Shown one piece after another: positions 13,116-19,380 of a DNA stretch of 64,000 bases; the stretch's first letter is position 1; each line of letters begins with the position of its first letter. Position numbers and translations under genes: made by a program. The stretch spans positions 85,306-149,305 of the forward strand of contig NZ_BMZG01000006.1 in assembly GCF_014652675.1 (NCBI RefSeq). Reading direction: 5' to 3'. Origin of the DNA: Formosimonas limnophila. GTDB lineage: Bacteria > Pseudomonadota > Gammaproteobacteria > Burkholderiales > Burkholderiaceae. The notes under the pieces were generated by a model. It saw nothing but the letters and a program-made list of their open reading frames with translations, made no database searches and had not been told where the DNA came from.

Positions 13116-13385
13116 ATGCGACTGCGACGATATCTTGCTTTGGGATGGCTGTCATGTGCTGTGGCGACTTCAGTGCAGGCCGCTGATGTGAATCGAGCCA
13201 CTGCCTTTCAGCTTGAGGCGGTTGGTGGGATTGGTGAGCAGATGGCTGCAGACATCGTCGCTGAACGGGTAGCTCATGGGCGCTTTGTCAGTTGGGATGA
13301 CTTCCGACAACGCGTCAAAGGTGTCGGTGAGCATAATCTAAAAATCATGCAAAAAGATGGATTGACCCTCAATGCAAACCCATAA
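13116..13385 (+). CDS. Exported ComEA-like helix-hairpin-helix protein
   Basis: Small exported DNA-binding-type protein of 89 aa with a signal peptide ending VQAA. One helix-hairpin-helix domain follows: VNRATAFQLEAVGGIGEQMAADIVAERVAHGRF, then FRQRVKGVGEHNLKIMQ. ComEA proteins bind incoming DNA in the periplasm during transformation, but single-domain relatives of this size are widespread and often uncharacterised. SD AGGAGG lies just before the ATG. Its last codons overlap the start of the sigma-factor gene by 14 bp, so the two are likely translationally linked. Confidence 0.85.
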   Translation: MRLRRYLALGWLSCAVATSVQAADVNRATAFQLEAVGGIGEQMAADIVAERVAHGRFVSWDDFRQRVKGVGEHNLKIMQKDGLTLNANP

Positions 13386-13944
13386 CGATATTTGGCAAGA
13401 GCTTGCCACACACCATGGTTATTTGCTCAAAGTGGCTCGTCGGCTCACGCCGAATGATGCTTTGGCTCAAGATGTGGTGCAAGACACTTTGCTGGCCGCG
13501 TGCGAAAAATTCAATCAATTCCAAGGCAAGTCCAGCTTACGCACATGGCTCACCACGATTCTTAAAAATCGCTTGCGAGACACATGGCGGGCAGACAAAC
13601 GTTGGGTGGCGCCGCTCACGCAAGGTGAGGATGGCGTTGAGGATTTTGACGCCTTGTTTAGAGGCGACGGGCATTGGGAAAAAGAAACCTTTGTCCAGTG
13701 GCTCAGCCCAGAGCAGTTGGTGTCCGAGCAGCAATTTATCGCTGTGCTGGATGACTGCATGAAAAAATTACCAGCCAAAACAGGGCAGGTATTCATGATG
13801 AGCCAAGTGTTAGAGATGAGCACGGATGAGATTCGGGTTGAGCTGGGCATCACAGCCAGCCATCTGTGGGTGCTGCTCTACCGTGCACGCATGACGCTCA
13901 AGTTATGCCTTGAAAAAAACTGGCTCGGTTTGGCCTCTGCCTAA
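13372..13944 (+). CDS. ECF-family RNA polymerase sigma factor
   Basis: Alternative sigma factor that probably drives the downstream bufferin operon. The 190 aa protein has region 2 at about residues 15-70, with DALAQDVVQDTLLAACEKF and SSLRTWLTTILKNRLRDTWR. Region 4 (LDDCMKKLPAKTGQVFMMSQVLEMSTDEI, then LGITASHLWVLLYRARMTLK) covers the last third. The linker between them is long and acidic. ECF sigma factors next to DUF2282/DUF692/DUF2063 genes are a known arrangement in proteobacteria. A candidate ECF-type promoter lies 40-70 bp after its stop. Confidence 0.93.
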   Translation: MQTHNDIWQELATHHGYLLKVARRLTPNDALAQDVVQDTLLAACEKFNQFQGKSSLRTWLTTILKNRLRDTWRADKRWVAPLTQGEDGVEDFDALFRGDGHWEKETFVQWLSPEQLVSEQQFIAVLDDCMKKLPAKTGQVFMMSQVLEMSTDEIRVELGITASHLWVLLYRARMTLKLCLEKNWLGLASA

Positions 13945-13982
13945 ATTATTTTTCAAGCCATCAAAAATTATTTCAATTACTT

Positions 13983-14014
13983 TGTAAGGGCTGGTGGCGT
14001 CGCTGCGTCTAAAG
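13983..14014 (+). promoter_or_regulatory. Candidate ECF sigma-factor promoter of the bufferin operon
   Basis: TGTAAGGG at 13983-13990 and CGTCTAAAG at 14006-14014, 15 bp apart, lie between the sigma factor gene and the anti-sigma gene. GTAA-type -35 and CGTC-type -10 elements are typical of several ECF groups. The element is not repeated elsewhere that I noticed, and use by the adjacent sigma factor is inferred. Confidence 0.45.
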
Positions 14015-14088
14015 GGTACAGGATGCGAAAACATCACGGATGTGCCGCCGTAATCTTGTCAAAGATGACTGCGAAAGGAGAAGCAACT

Positions 14089-14274
14089 GTGTTTCAATTC
14101 AAGTGTAAAGATGCCTCGATGCTGATGGCGCGCTCTCAGGATGAATCGTTGCCTTGGTGCAAGCGGGTTCAGCTGCGAGCACACTTAATGATGTGTCATC
14201 GTTGCCGTGGGTTTAACCGACAGATGCAGACCCTTTCACAAGGCGTTCGGAAGTGGAAAGAGCAATCTGATTGA
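14089..14274 (+). CDS. Short zinc-finger anti-sigma-like protein
   Basis: A 61 aa soluble protein starting at GTG 14089, set by GAAAGGAG at 14073-14080. The frame is open from 14023, but that longer start lacks an SD. It holds the ZAS/zf-HC2 pattern: an early Cys (FKCKDAS), then LRAHLMMCHRCRGFNRQM with the HxxxCxxC zinc site that many anti-sigma factors use. There is no membrane helix, unlike many anti-sigma factors, so control would be cytoplasmic and could be redox- or metal-responsive. It sits directly after the ECF sigma gene. Identity as its anti-sigma partner is inference from motif and position. Confidence 0.75.
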   Translation: MFQFKCKDASMLMARSQDESLPWCKRVQLRAHLMMCHRCRGFNRQMQTLSQGVRKWKEQSD

Positions 14275-14327
14275 GCCAAAGATGGCTTTTGATTTTTTAA
14301 TTTTTCACCAAATTTTAGAGTAAGACA

Positions 14328-14624
14328 ATGAAAAAATACAACATGATGATGGCCGCAGCCGTGGCAAGTTTGACTTTGGCCGCGTGCTCAAAGCCCGCTG
14401 AAGCGCCGAAAGCCGACGCCACAGCAAAAGCTGATGCGAAAACCGCAGCAGACCCCGCCAAAAGTGAAAAGTGCTACGGCATCGCCATGGCGGGTAAGAA
14501 TGACTGCGCCAATAAAACTGGCACGCACTCATGTGCAGGCCAAGCCAAAACAGACAATGACCCGAACGAATGGAAGTATGTGGACAAAGGCACTTGCGCG
14601 GGTTTGGGTGGAAAAACCGCTTAA
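14328..14624 (+). CDS. bufA1: DUF2282 bufferin-type RiPP precursor with lipobox (BufA-like)
   Basis: Precursor of a ribosomally made, post-translationally modified copper-binding peptide of the bufferin type. The 98 aa protein has a signal peptide ending LAAC (Cys20), a lipobox that would lipidate it. A disordered Ala/Lys/Asp/Pro linker spans residues 21-47. The DUF2282 core has four cysteines at 49, 60, 69 and 90 ([23 protein letters not shown]). In studied bufferins, core Cys are oxidised by the DUF692/DUF2063 pair to copper-binding heterocycles. The maturases are encoded downstream. Lipidation plus a long linker would tether the metallophore to a membrane; that is inference. Confidence 0.88.
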
Positions 14625-14714
14625 ATCCCCGTCGCTAATGGCATTCATGCCATAGTGCACTATCACTTTATTTAATTTAATCAATATCAGTTAATCTCTA
14701 ACAGGAGAAATACC

Positions 14715-14966
14715 ATGAATAAGTCACAACTTTTGATGAGCGCAGCCTTGACCAGTTTGATGCTCGTCGGCACTGCCCAAGCCCAAACGTCTATGGGCAA
14801 AGAAAAATAAAAATGCTACGGCGTGGCCAAAGCTGGCCAAAACGACTGCGCCAGCAAAACAGGCAGTCACTCGTGCGCAGGTCAAGCCAAAAAAGACAAT
14901 GATGCTAACGAATGGAAATACGTGGCCAAAGGCACTTGCGCGACCATGGGTGGTCAACTTAAATAA
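14715..14966 (+). pseudogene. bufA2: Second DUF2282 bufferin precursor, interrupted by an in-frame TAA
   Basis: From ATG 14715 (SD AGGAG at 14703) the frame gives a type I signal peptide MNKSQLLMSAALTSLMLVGTAQAQ, then TSMGKEK and a TAA at 14808-14810. The same frame then continues through a full DUF2282 core to TAA 14964. Core cysteines 34, 45, 54 and 75 have exactly the spacing of the first copy (11, 9, 21). Over 51 core residues 38 are identical between copies (counted by eye). The stop falls between signal peptide and core. Either this is a very recent nonsense mutation, a sequencing error, or a readthrough product; no ATG restart exists before the core. It has no lipobox, unlike copy 1. 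Confidence 0.85.
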
Positions 14967-15005
14967 ACGACGAACGACGTCACTGATTTTTTCATGTTGT
15001 TGTTT

Positions 15006-15044
15006 GGCGTGCACCCGTGGTTGGGTGTACGCCCCCCTCTTTTT
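15006..15044 (+). terminator. Attenuator-like hairpin between precursor and maturase genes
   Basis: GGCGTGCACCC (15006-15016), loop GTGGTT, GGGTGTACGCC (15023-15033): an 11-bp stem with one G-T pair, followed after a C-run by CTCTTTTT. It is placed to let most transcripts stop after the precursor genes, so that peptide exceeds enzyme. Confidence 0.6.
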
Positions 15045-15101
15045 AAGAGGTTTTTGAGAGGTGAGCAGCAAAATGAGTGTGACGGTCAATGGGAAAATAC
15101 G

Positions 15102-15923
15102 ATGAGCATCGGCTTTGGCGTCGGACTGCGAACACCACATTACCGTGAGTTTCTGGAAAACAAACCCGCTGTGGATTGGCTGGAGGTGCATTCAGAGAAC
15201 TACTTTGGTGACGGTGGCTGGGACATGCATGTCTTGATGACTTTGCGCGAAACCTATCCCATCAGTTTGCATGGCGTGGGTTTGGGTTTGGGCTCAGCCA
15301 ACGGTATTTCGAGTGCGCATTTGGCAAAAATCAAAGCGTTGGCGGACAGGGTGCAGCCTGAGTTGGTCTCTGAGCATCTGTGTTGGGGTAATGTTTCTGG
15401 GCGTGTGCTCAATGATTTGTTGCCGCTGCCTTATACAGAAGAAGTCTTGGCGGTGATTGCCGCCCATGTGCGGCAGATGCAGGATGTGTTGGGGCGGCAA
15501 GTCTTGATTGAAAACCTCAGCAGCTACGTGCAGTTTGCCAGCAGCACCTTGTCTGAAGCGGCTTTTTTGAATGAGCTGGTTGCACAGACCGGTTGTGGGT
15601 TGTTATTGGATGTGAACAATGTTTATGTCAATCAATGCAATCACGGTATATCGGCGCTGGATACGATTCACGCACTGAATCTGGATGCGGTCAAAGAAAT
15701 TCATCTGGCGGGTCACTGCGTGCTCGATGATGTGGTGATTGACCATCACGGTGATGTGGTCGCCGATGAGGTGTGGGACTTGTACCGCATTGTGGTGGCG
15801 CGGATGGGACACGTTTCTACATTGATTGAGTGGGATACTGATGTGCCCGATTTATCGGTTTTGTTGGCGCAGTCTGATAAAGCGCGTGGCGTGGCGCACC
15901 AAGCATCGCAGGTGTTGGTATGA
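15102..15923 (+). CDS. bufB: DUF692 (MNIO) maturase, BufB-like
   Basis: Multinuclear non-haem iron-dependent oxidase that modifies cysteines of the bufferin precursor together with its DUF2063 partner; MbnB of methanobactin synthesis is the best-known relative. The 273 aa TIM-barrel protein shows the family landmarks in order: [74 protein letters not shown] and IEWD. The His, Glu and Asp residues in these segments are the iron ligands. Start chosen at ATG 15102, where homology begins, though the frame is open upstream. A 10-codon ORF (15073) ends in overlap with this ATG. Confidence 0.93.
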
Positions 15924-16693
15924 GTCTACATTATGAACAAGCGCGATTTGCTCGCTGGGTGACGCAACTGGCGACTGATGAAGCACAGACGGGTGAAGCC
16001 TTGGTTTCAGGTTCTGTCACCGTGGCGCGTGGTTTGGCCGCTTATCAAAATAATCTGCGTTTGGCATGGCGCAATGCCTTGGCCGCGACATTTCCTGTCA
16101 TGGTGCAGTTGATTGGCGAAGATGGGTTTACGTTGTCCGCGCGGGATTACGCTCAGGCTTATCCTTCTCAGAGTGGTGATTTGAATGAGTTTGGTCAGTA
16201 TTTTCCCCAATTCATGGCGGACTATGAACCACTGGCCGCGTATCCGTATTTATCAGATGTTGCTCGACTGGAGTGGTTGTGGCATGGTGCACATTATGCT
16301 GCGAATCACACTTCGCTGCGTGTTGAGGATTTGATGGCGCATGGCGCGGAGGATTGGTTGTCGGCACAGGTTCGGTTTGCGCCCAGCGCTTGTTTGTTTG
16401 AGGCGAATCACGCAGCAGTCAGTATTTGGTTGGCGCATCAAGCGCAGGCTGATTTGAGCTCGTTACAGGTGCATCAGCGCGAATTTGCCATCGTGTATCG
16501 TCCTGTATGGCGTGTTGAGGTACGATTGATTGATGAAGCTGCATTTGTGTTTTTGCAAGCGTTGCGCGCTGGGGCGACGTTTGAAGAGGCCTTTGCGATG
16601 GTCGATGAGATGAATTTATCGCTGGACGTTGTGGCTCTGCTGCCCGTGTTGATTGACGCGGGCATCTGGTGTGACATCGTTTGGACGAACTAA
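15920..16693 (+). CDS. bufC: DUF2063 partner protein, BufC-like
   Basis: Substrate-recognition partner of the DUF692 oxidase; MbnC is the functional analogue. The 257 aa protein begins [15 protein letters not shown], followed by [32 protein letters not shown] and the [20 protein letters not shown] stretch, all typical of DUF2063 N-terminal domains (often labelled putative DNA-binding). Its ATG overlaps the bufB stop by 4 bp (ATGA), so the two are translationally coupled, as expected for a stoichiometric complex. Confidence 0.92.
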
Positions 16694-16706
16694 AAAAGGA
16701 AATAAC

Positions 16707-17171
16707 ATGAAAACGAATCGTGTATTGAGCCGCTTGATGTGGCATGGCAACGATGATGTGGTGTCAAAGTCACTGGCAGATTTGCTATTACTGGCGTTGC
16801 GATGGTTTATCGCATGGCAATTTTTAAAAGCGGGTTTGGTCAAGCTCGATGACTGGTCATCGACTCTGGCTTTGTTTGAAAGTGAATACCAAGTACCGTT
16901 GCTCTCGCCTGTGTTGGCGGCGTATTTTGGTACAGCGGGTGAATTGGTGTTCCCAATTTTGCTGATGGCGGGTTTGTTCACACGGTGGGCCGCACTTGGC
17001 TTGTTTGCGGTGAATGCGATGGCGGTGATTTCGTATCCGCAGTTATTCACATTCAATTGCCCCGCAGCCATCAATGACCACAAGTATTGGGCGGTGATTT
17101 TGGCGGTGATTTTTGTCTTTGGTGCTGGCCGATTGTCTGTGGATGCCTTGTTTGGACGTAAAACGGCTTAA
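16707..17171 (+). CDS. DoxX-family membrane protein of the bufferin operon
   Basis: Inner-membrane protein of 154 aa, DoxX family, with four predicted helices (LLLLALRWFIAWQFLKAGLVKL, the AAYFGTAGELVFPILLMAGLF region, WAALGLFAVNAMAVISY, and WAVILAVIFVFGAGRL). DoxX genes close many DUF2282/DUF692/DUF2063 operons. The function there is not settled; a role in redox or peptide handling is only a guess. SD AAAGGAAA precedes ATG 16707, and the frame upstream overlaps bufC and is not used. A strong terminator follows, ending the operon. Confidence 0.9.
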   Translation: MKTNRVLSRLMWHGNDDVVSKSLADLLLLALRWFIAWQFLKAGLVKLDDWSSTLALFESEYQVPLLSPVLAAYFGTAGELVFPILLMAGLFTRWAALGLFAVNAMAVISYPQLFTFNCPAAINDHKYWAVILAVIFVFGAGRLSVDALFGRKTA

Positions 17172-17614: not shown

Positions 17615-18751
17615 ATGACAGACTCATCCGACACACTGGGCGTTGTGACGCCACAAACCATGAATTTTGATGTCGCTTTGCCTCTGCAAAGTGGTGCGGT
17701 GCTACGCGACTATACGCTGATGTACGAGACGTATGGCACACTCAATGCGGCACGAGACAATGCGGTACTCATTTGTCATGCGCTCAATGCATCGCATCAT
17801 GTGGCCGGTGTCTCGCCATCGGGTGATGTGGGTTGGTGGGACAATATGGTCGGGCCGGGTAAGCCTGTCGATACCAATCGCTTCTTTGTGGTCGGCATTA
17901 ATAATCTTGGTTCCTGTTTTGGCTCCACAGGGCCGATGCATCTGAATCCTGAAACAGGCAAAATTTATGGTGCGGATTTCCCGTTTGTCACCGTTGAGGA
18001 TTGGGTGGACGCACAGTACCGTTTGATGAATGCCTTGGGTATTTCGCAGTGGGCGGCTGTGATGGGCGGCAGTTTGGGCGGCATGCAGGCGCTGGCGTGG
18101 AGCATTCGCTATCCCGCCGCGCTGCGTCACTGTGTGGTGATTGCCTCTACCCCCAAATTATCAGCGCAGAACATCGCATTTAATGATGTGGCGCGACAAG
18201 CGATTTTGACAGACCCCGATTTTCACGGCGGGCATTTTTATGAGCACGGCACATTGCCACGACGCGGATTGCGTGTGGCTCGGATGATTGGGCACATCAC
18301 GTATTTGTCGGACGACGACATGGCGGAGAAATTTGGTCGTGATTTGCGAGAGCGAGACGACTATGGTTTTGGCTATGGGGTGGATTTTGAGATTGAGTCC
18401 TACTTGCGTTATCAGGGGGATAAATTCGCCGATTATTTTGATGCTAATACCTACCTGCTCATTACCAAGGCTTTGGATTACTTCGACCCTGCCCGTTTGT
18501 TTGAGGGGGATTTGAGCCGTGCGTTGGCCAGCACGCAGGCGCAGTATTTGATTGCGTCATTTTCGACGGATTGGCGATTCTCGCCTGAGCGCTCGCGCGA
18601 AATGGTGCAAGCGTTGGTGAAGAATCGGCGAACGGTGTCTTATGCTGAGATTGACGCCAAACATGGTCACGATGCATTTTTGCTCAACGATCCGCGCTAT
18701 CACAATGTGGTGCGTGCGTACTTTGCACGAATTTCAGGAGAGCTATCATGA
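17615..18751 (+). CDS. metX: Homoserine O-acyltransferase
   Basis: Alpha/beta-hydrolase that acylates homoserine, the first committed step of methionine synthesis in these bacteria. The acyl donor is acetyl- or succinyl-CoA and cannot be decided here. The 378 aa protein has the nucleophile elbow [12 protein letters not shown]. The catalytic Asp is in [10 protein letters not shown] and the catalytic His in [10 protein letters not shown]. The oxyanion/homoserine-binding stretch [12 protein letters not shown] and [12 protein letters not shown] are also as in MetX. It overlaps metW by 4 bp and is controlled by a SAM-II-like leader. Confidence 0.95.
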
Positions 18752-19380
18752 GCCAAACCGCACATGCAGCGATTAATGCCGCGAGCTTATTGGCAGGTGA
18801 GCAACGTCCAGACTTTGATGTCATCACGCGTTGGGTGCCTAAAGGGGCTCATGTCTTGGATTTGGGGTGTGGTGATGGCAGGTTGTTGGCCAAATTGCGA
18901 GACGAGAAGCGAGTCACTGGTTATGGCGTTGAACTTCGTGATGACAACGTTCATGCGTGTGTGAAAAAAGGCTTGAATGTCTTGCAACAAGACTTAGAGG
19001 GTGGCTTGTCGTGGTTTGAAGACAAAAGTTTTGACATCGCCATCCTATCGCTCACACTACAAGCAGTGCATAAAACCGAAGAAATGATGCGCGAAATTGC
19101 CCGCGTCGGCAAAACTTGCATTGTCTCCGTGCCTAACTTTGGTCACTGGCCGCATCGCTTGTCGGTGCTCAGAGGTCGTATGCCTGTGTCAAAAACCTTG
19201 CCTTACGAGTGGTACAACACGCCGAATGTGCGGGTGCTGACTATTCCTGACTTTAAGCGACTCGCTGACGATGTGGGTTGTCGCATTGTGGAGCAGGTCG
19301 TATTGCGCGAAGACCGTGAGGTGAAATGGCTGAGCAATCTGCGCGGTAATTTGGCCTTGTTTAAATTGGAGTCTAAATAA
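18748..19380 (+). CDS. metW: Methionine biosynthesis protein MetW
   Basis: Methyltransferase-fold partner of MetX; in relatives it activates or stabilises homoserine acyltransferase. The 210 aa protein carries motif [16 protein letters not shown] and a following acidic GVEL. The family segments [29 protein letters not shown] and [16 protein letters not shown] are present. The ATG overlaps the metX stop (ATGA) with GGAGAG upstream, so the two are coupled and share the riboswitch. A bidirectional terminator follows. Confidence 0.95.

Follow-up and report, generated by a model that had tools for sequence, protein, structure and literature searches.

A Buf1-type bufferin operon of Formosimonas limnophila appears to be controlled by a Neisseria-type sigma-E switch

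In Neisseria meningitidis, the sigma factor sigma-E belongs to its own autoregulated operon (PMC2893595); this operon, NMB2140-NMB2145, includes the anti-sigma factor MseR, and msrA/msrB belong to the same regulon (PMC2893595, PMC3240639). Bufferin operons of the Buf1 type have been described separately, with a precursor peptide of the DUF2282 family that is reported to occur in tandem copies as well (PMC12452194). In this work we describe a locus that combines features of both systems, located at positions 13372-17171 of a 64,000-nucleotide stretch of Formosimonas limnophila (contig NZ_BMZG01000006.1; this whole stretch is called the window below), which is contained in a 2.2 Mb genome of 55 contigs. 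Judged from its sequence, the operon at this locus appears to be controlled by a sigma-E switch of the Neisseria type. All genes of the operon lie on the forward strand, and its features are as follows.

13372-13944, forward strand: extracytoplasmic function (ECF) sigma factor, assigned to the TIGR02943 family by profile, 190 aa
13984-14012, forward strand: sigma-E-type promoter between the sigma and anti-sigma genes, directed at the anti-sigma gene and those downstream
14089-14274, forward strand: anti-sigma factor of the zinc anti-sigma (ZAS) type, NF052368, 61 aa, GTG start, with Cys6, His32, Cys36 and Cys39
14328-14624, forward strand: Buf1 (DUF2282) precursor 1, 98 aa, predicted lipoprotein with lipobox LAAC and Ser at +2
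14715-14966, forward strand: Buf1 (DUF2282) precursor 2, broken by a stop (signal peptide at 14715-14807, TAA at 14808-14810, then a core at 14811-14963 that looks intact)
15006-15043, forward strand: 12-bp hairpin with a T-rich tail between the precursors and the MNIO gene, a candidate partial terminator
15102-15923, forward strand: MNIO maturase (DUF692, BufB; PF05114, NF050167), 273 aa
15920-16693, forward strand: DUF2063 partner (BufC-like), 257 aa, overlapping the end of the MNIO gene by 4 nt
16707-17171, forward strand: DoxX-family membrane protein, assigned by the DoxX profile, 154 aa
17190-17214, forward strand: terminator-like hairpin at the operon end
13116-13385: helix-hairpin-helix gene, the 5' neighbour of the sigma gene, overlapping its start by 14 nt

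In profile searches, the sigma factor scored 187.1 bits against TIGR02943 (cut-off 162.2), precursor 1 scored 86.7 bits against DUF2282 (cut-off 22.4), and the MNIO protein scored 347.9 bits against PF05114 (cut-off 25) and 374.7 bits against the BufB maturase family NF050167 (cut-off 310), making it an enzyme of the bufferin-maturase type. The DUF2063 partner reached 65.6 bits against PF09836 (cut-off 27.2) and 35.3 against the NCBIfam family HvfC, under the latter's 142, and a sequence search retrieved no PDB match for it. The DoxX protein reached 59.6 bits against DoxX (cut-off 23.6) and 61 against HvfX, under its 80. No match to NrsF was found among the operon proteins in the family-profile scans. 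Because the family scores exceed their cut-offs and the same cassette is found in genus-mates, the locus is, as far as sequence goes, a genuine Buf1-type MNIO operon, beyond chance. The original prediction, which was made from the letters alone, had described a complete seven-gene operon with two DUF2282 precursors. Its gene order and outer coordinates hold, as does the identical spacing of four cysteines that it saw in the two cores (positions 1, 12, 21 and 42 in both), and the profile search it proposed placed DUF2282 (precursor 1), DUF692 and DUF2063 all above cut-off. Neither "complete" nor the count of two precursors survives, owing to an in-frame TAA in precursor 2; every other gene of the operon has an open frame. 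Comparison with the MNIOs of the genus moved the MNIO start to ATG 15102 from 14994, and the DoxX start was set at ATG 16707 from sequence reading and relatives.

The meningococcal sigma-E consensus is given as a -35 of GTMAGBWTT, 12-13 nt, and a -10 of CGTCTAAH (PMC2893595). In the window, a -35 of GTAAGG (13984-13989) is followed after 16 nt by a -10 of CGTCTAA (14006-14012). Set out against the consensus, the site reads GTAAGGGCT from 13984, 13 nt and CGTCTAAA, with an exact -10 and a -35 that departs at two positions. A looser version of the pattern matched once in the window and not at all in 100 dinucleotide shuffles of it. The strict pattern, GTAAGG-N15/16-CGTCTAA, has two sites in the whole genome, one at the operon and one upstream of msrA, where the -10 ends 29 nt 5' of the msrA ATG; this msrA (PF01625, 199 bits) encodes a single-domain MsrA. 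We would like to note that msrA had already been named in the Neisseria regulon papers before the genome scan.

Across 120 genomes, the host's own included, the strict pattern gave six matches in five genomes. Four of these stand at Buf1 operons of the genus (in F. limnophila itself and in the genus-mates G001, G003 and G004), and the remaining two stand before the F. limnophila msrA and before an msrAB gene in a Neisseria-like genome (G114). A reversed-pattern control produced 19 matches in 16 of the 120 genomes, none of them in the genus; isolated matches elsewhere therefore mean little, and it is the positions of the matches that carry weight. The same comparison over 80 named MNIO loci, 772,390 bases in all, gave four matches to the strict pattern and none to the reversed one. 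All four matches lie upstream of Buf1, two in genus-mates and two in metagenome-assembled genomes of other Betaproteobacteria (L037:4520-4547 and L104:4504-4531), where 105 and 101 nt, respectively, lie between the end of the -10 and the initial Met of Buf1. No sigma factor match was found within either of the latter two loci, and a sigma factor would therefore act there from elsewhere.

The promoter lies between the sigma and anti-sigma genes in the window, G001 and G004. In G003 it stands 5' of the anti-sigma gene, with the sigma gene cut off from it by a contig end. The genome-wide scan with the strict pattern found no site upstream of the sigma gene. With the promoter 3' of the sigma gene, the anti-sigma gene is within the promoter-controlled unit and the sigma gene outside it, and the loop should therefore shut itself off. 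We predict a self-limiting loop here, as opposed to the self-amplifying one of Neisseria.

The anti-sigma protein scored 60 bits against NF052368 antisigmaE (cut-off 50), and a longer reading of 83 aa scored 18.5 against the Pfam family zf-HC2, under its 22.2. Relatives and the ribosome site led us to revise the start to GTG 14089 from ATG 14023. The 26-4-3 spacing of its Cys/His residues is the spacing given for NMB2145 and RsrA. A soluble, short anti-sigma factor had been predicted, and the protein, at 61 aa, indeed shows no obvious membrane segment; such a protein is not new, as the meningococcal NMB2145/MseR is a precedent (PMC2893595). NF052368 was found in 132 of 300 genomes of the order (118 over cut-off), so that a ZAS alone is no marker of bufferin operons. 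Within about 1.5 kb on each side of 30 ZAS loci, a Buf1/MNIO motif was present in three (L148, L150 and L164) and absent from 27; L164 was rejected as a ZAS-MNIO locus, its motif being on the other strand and phmmer finding no MNIO there.

The full model, a Buf1 operon under a switch of the Neisseria sigma-E/MseR type, is one that we consider likely. Transcription of the sigma gene would start outside the regulated unit, and the 61-aa zinc anti-sigma would retain the sigma factor in the cytoplasm. An insult directed at thiols or zinc, for which copper is the leading candidate, would disable the anti-sigma through its Cys/His site, and the freed sigma would start both the promoter at 13984-14012 (anti-sigma, precursors, MNIO, DUF2063 and DoxX) and the msrA promoter. 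In precursor 1, MNIO and the DUF2063 partner would then convert the second and third cysteines to thiooxazoles by oxidation, and the peptide would be exported by Sec, lipidated and retained in the envelope, where it would bind copper. As the induced unit supplies the anti-sigma without the sigma, the response would limit itself.

By analogy with relatives, a copper response is plausible, and copper is our leading guess for the signal, with thiol or oxidative stress close behind. The gigPABT genes of Cupriavidus are induced by copper and gold (PMC10304878), and for Caulobacter sigma-F the inducers are chromium and cadmium, not agents that generate reactive oxygen species (ROS; PMC3511200). The competing view is that the switch answers oxidative or thiol stress, with copper as one of several triggers and bufferin and MsrA forming a joint response to sulfur damage; we regard this as quite possible, though we lean somewhat against it. 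It would account for the promoter common to the operon and msrA, and the Cys positions of the ZAS are those of RsrA. In gonococci, expression of ecf, msrAB and the operon genes goes up in the presence of neutrophils, and these genes appear in lists of H2O2-responsive ones (PMC11257400), but an ecf mutant withstood neutrophils as well as the parent strain did (PMC11257400) and tested oxidative stimuli left meningococcal sigma-E expression unchanged (PMC2893595). The metal responses of the Cupriavidus and Caulobacter relatives, together with the lack of a response to ROS agents in the latter, also speak against it.

Several points weigh against the sigma-E model as a whole, and the unchanged meningococcal sigma-E expression is among them. 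In Cupriavidus, metal-treated cells that lacked rpoQ showed higher gig expression, and RpoQ is only assumed to control gig there (PMC10304878), while Caulobacter sigma-F is dispensable for surviving Cr or Cd (PMC3511200). In F. limnophila, the strict promoter has just one further site, before msrA, which is not a copper gene. The -35 of that site overlaps the stop codon of the upstream gene; the msrA match may therefore be partly coding-constrained and is somewhat weaker. The strict promoter is also found before msrA in none of five genus-mates (0/5). Inspection by eye showed a weaker near-match, GTAAGT-N15-CGTCCAA, in the msrA upstream regions of G001 and G004, and no near-match was seen in those of G002, G003 and G005. 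The Buf2 operon of G005, which has both sigma and ZAS, gave no promoter match upstream, and no convincing match was found upstream at L055, L089, L113 or L148, the last three of which have sigma, ZAS and Buf1 together. Finally, the broken precursor 2 could mean decay, as could the G003 sigma gene, which has a TAA in frame; this reading is weighed with precursor 2 below.

Precursor 1 carries the lipobox SLTLAAC-S after a hydrophobic signal (recognised by pattern only), and its counterpart in G003 carries VTAC-S; neither precursor was flagged as a lipoprotein in G001 or G004. A survey of 104 distinct Buf1 sequences, which are not mutually independent, used a home-made pattern and not SignalP, and found a credible lipobox in three: the window, G003 and L111 (Pelagibius). 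Six of the nine flags (TVNC) were dropped because the flagged cysteine is core Cys I. By this survey, a lipoprotein signal is rare among Buf1 sequences. Precursor 1 is probably tethered to a membrane through lipidation. If so, the copper buffer would sit on a membrane and not free in the periplasm. The Buf1 of Pelagibius marinus, with lipobox LSAC, lies outside the genus Formosimonas, and more than one origin of lipidated Buf1 is therefore suggested. As a separate observation, the second Buf1 precursor of G004 (L031:5469-5933, reverse strand, 154 aa) ends in a long tail rich in Met and His that may bind additional copper, and the second Buf1 frame of G001 is similarly long.

Read from ATG 14715, precursor 2 has an in-frame TAA at 14808-14810 that separates MNKSQLLMSAALTSLMLVGTAQAQTSMGKEK from the core, and the family search likewise shows one TAA within the precursor 2 match. 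The core alone scores 87 bits against DUF2282. In five comparisons its dN is 0.10-0.33 and its dS at least 0.93; this low dN relative to dS suggests purifying selection until recently, and the stop therefore looks recent. To us, the TAA is either a nonsense mutation of recent date or an error of assembly. Stops within genes are not general: the ABC-transporter domain PF00005 is uninterrupted in all six genus genomes among the matches listed. A codon-bias scan for other broken genes gave none at threshold, with known genes also under threshold, so that it is uninformative.

That the TAA is an error of sequencing or assembly in an intact gene is unlikely in our estimation, if well worth keeping in mind. 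Both members of the tandem Buf1 pair are uninterrupted in each of G001, G003 and G004, and the core of precursor 2 is conserved, as this explanation would have it, whereas the open PF00005 frames give no sign of a general excess of stops. We hold it highly improbable that readthrough or recoding of the TAA yields a full precursor 2: although the low dN/dS of the core and the placement of the TAA at the junction of signal peptide and core would suit it, TAA is an ordinary stop here, being the one with which the sigma gene closes, and no stop occupies that site in the relatives examined. Decay of the operon, with the stops in precursor 2 and in the G003 sigma gene marking loss of function in the genus, could draw further on the searches of G002 and G005, which found no Buf1 match. 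However, G005 has a Buf2 version instead, the remaining operon genes of the window are all open, and the low dN of the precursor 2 core makes its stop apparently recent; we therefore think decay quite unlikely. The G003 sigma gene (L129, G003:C273:3160-3720) has its in-frame TAA at the position of a lysine codon in the window, which may mark a pseudogene or stem from faulty assembly.

The MNIO protein aligns with the 3bww and MbnB structures, and its residues H57, H92, E137, D170, N173, H201, D214, H216 and E243 are invariant in four MNIOs of the genus; we take these invariant residues to be iron ligands. For HvfB, the essential residues are N175, D242 and H244 (PMC13419390). Tentatively, N173, D214 and H216 correspond to these HvfB site-3 residues; the 3bww numbering of the last two deviates by one.

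Ahead of the MNIO gene, 15006-15033 forms a 12-bp stem followed by a T-rich tail, and the surrounding 87 nt folds with a z of -6.7 against shuffles. A strict terminator scan, whose anchor missed 78 of 84 sources, tested six (two of them duplicates), and only the window was positive. A second scan with looser criteria and phmmer anchors covered 82 sources (L034 and L035 were dropped as duplicates of L033 and L032). Buf1 lay upstream of MNIO in 72 of the 82, the gap was too short in 13, and 59 were tested, six of which were positive against 1.5 expected from shuffles. The positives comprise all four Buf1 genomes of the genus (shuffle rates 0.22, 0.18, 0.10 and 0.05) and two of 55 others, and the hairpins of the window, of G003 and of the pair G001/G004 are unrelated to one another in sequence. 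Because the criteria were altered after the data had been seen, this evidence is suggestive only. The hairpin may raise precursor levels over those of the enzyme.

A MetW gene (PF07021) and an alpha/beta hydrolase gene, the latter presumably MetX, lie 3' of the operon at 17615-19380 of the window, and similar genes follow the operon in G003. Genes for methionine synthesis thereby adjoin an operon that has the same type of promoter as msrA, which is possibly a coincidence.

Taken more widely, a portable sigma/ZAS switch might, across Betaproteobacteria, tie the repair of methionine sulfoxide to several classes of MNIO copper peptide. The present genus would have rewired it to be self-limiting and to drive an outer-membrane lipoprotein bufferin next to what used to be a soluble one, and a partial terminator would set the ratio of peptide to enzyme. 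We offer this larger picture tentatively and think it somewhat unlikely to hold in full. A literature search for reports linking MNIO, methionine sulfoxide reductase and a sigma factor found none, most subscription journals being outside its scope; one on lipoproteins and DUF2282 found two, among them PMC8224329. The locus ties the meningococcal sigma-E regulon, the signal of which is unsettled, to the copper-buffering bufferin family in another betaproteobacterial family, and makes it a testable question whether the switch senses copper or thiol damage. The points worth following are the lipoprotein signal and the promoter of Neisseria type, which also stands before msrA and before Buf1 of other Betaproteobacteria.

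Among known systems, Caulobacter sigma-F/NrsF is similar in having a metal-responsive ECF sigma factor without strong sigma autoregulation, and differs in its response to Cr/Cd and in using NrsF, with functionally important cysteines, instead of a ZAS (PMC3511200). The gigPABT genes of Cupriavidus metallidurans, with rpoQ/rsqA, are similar in their four-Cys secreted peptide, the DUF2063 protein GigB, the DoxX-like GigT and an adjoining ECF sigma factor; we take the metal-site protein GigA to be the MNIO. In contrast, RsqA is predicted to be membrane-bound and the sigma pair is divergent (PMC10304878).

The Buf1 clusters surveyed in PMC12452194 resemble the present one in their four-Cys DUF2282 precursor, MNIO, DUF2063 protein and DoxX protein. 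The anti-sigma factor named for them is NrsF, whereas here it is a ZAS, and lipoprotein signals are given there for about 16% of Buf2, a share stated in the available text for Buf2 only, whereas the predicted lipoprotein here is a Buf1. The G005 operon (L139:4325-7693, reverse strand) runs precursor-MNIO-DUF2063-DoxX-sigma-ZAS and is of the Buf2 type (NF050166), its BufA2 scoring 85.4 bits (cut-off 60) and its ZAS 34.4 against NF052368, under cut-off. With a sigma factor and a ZAS in a Buf2 operon, G005 is an exception to the statement in the same survey that sigma factors occur in Buf1 and not in Buf2 clusters.

The Neisseria-like genome G114 has a cassette of a near-match promoter, DoxX, an HvfA-type peptide, MNIO, sigma (TIGR02943) and ZAS (NF052368). 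Its peptide scored 31.4 against NF050137 (cut-off 19.5) and 37 against NF050188, under 95, and is thus HvfA-like where the precursors here are of DUF2282; its msrAB is, by eye, a thioredoxin-MsrA-MsrB fusion, in contrast to the single-domain MsrA here. A TIGR02943 sigma factor and a ZAS consequently accompany Buf1 in the genus, BufA2 in G005 and an HvfA-type peptide in G114. The likeness to Neisseria sigma-E itself extends to the ECF sigma with a short ZAS, the DoxX gene, the promoter consensus and possibly an msr gene in the regulon, for which the strict promoter stands before msrA here but is weaker or not seen in the five genus-mates. The gonococcal operon includes NGO1945, a protein of the DUF2063 family, which this operon contains as well. 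The difference lies in the layout: the Neisseria operon begins at DoxX and contains the sigma gene, making it self-amplifying, whereas here the sigma gene stands outside the regulated unit and the anti-sigma gene inside it.

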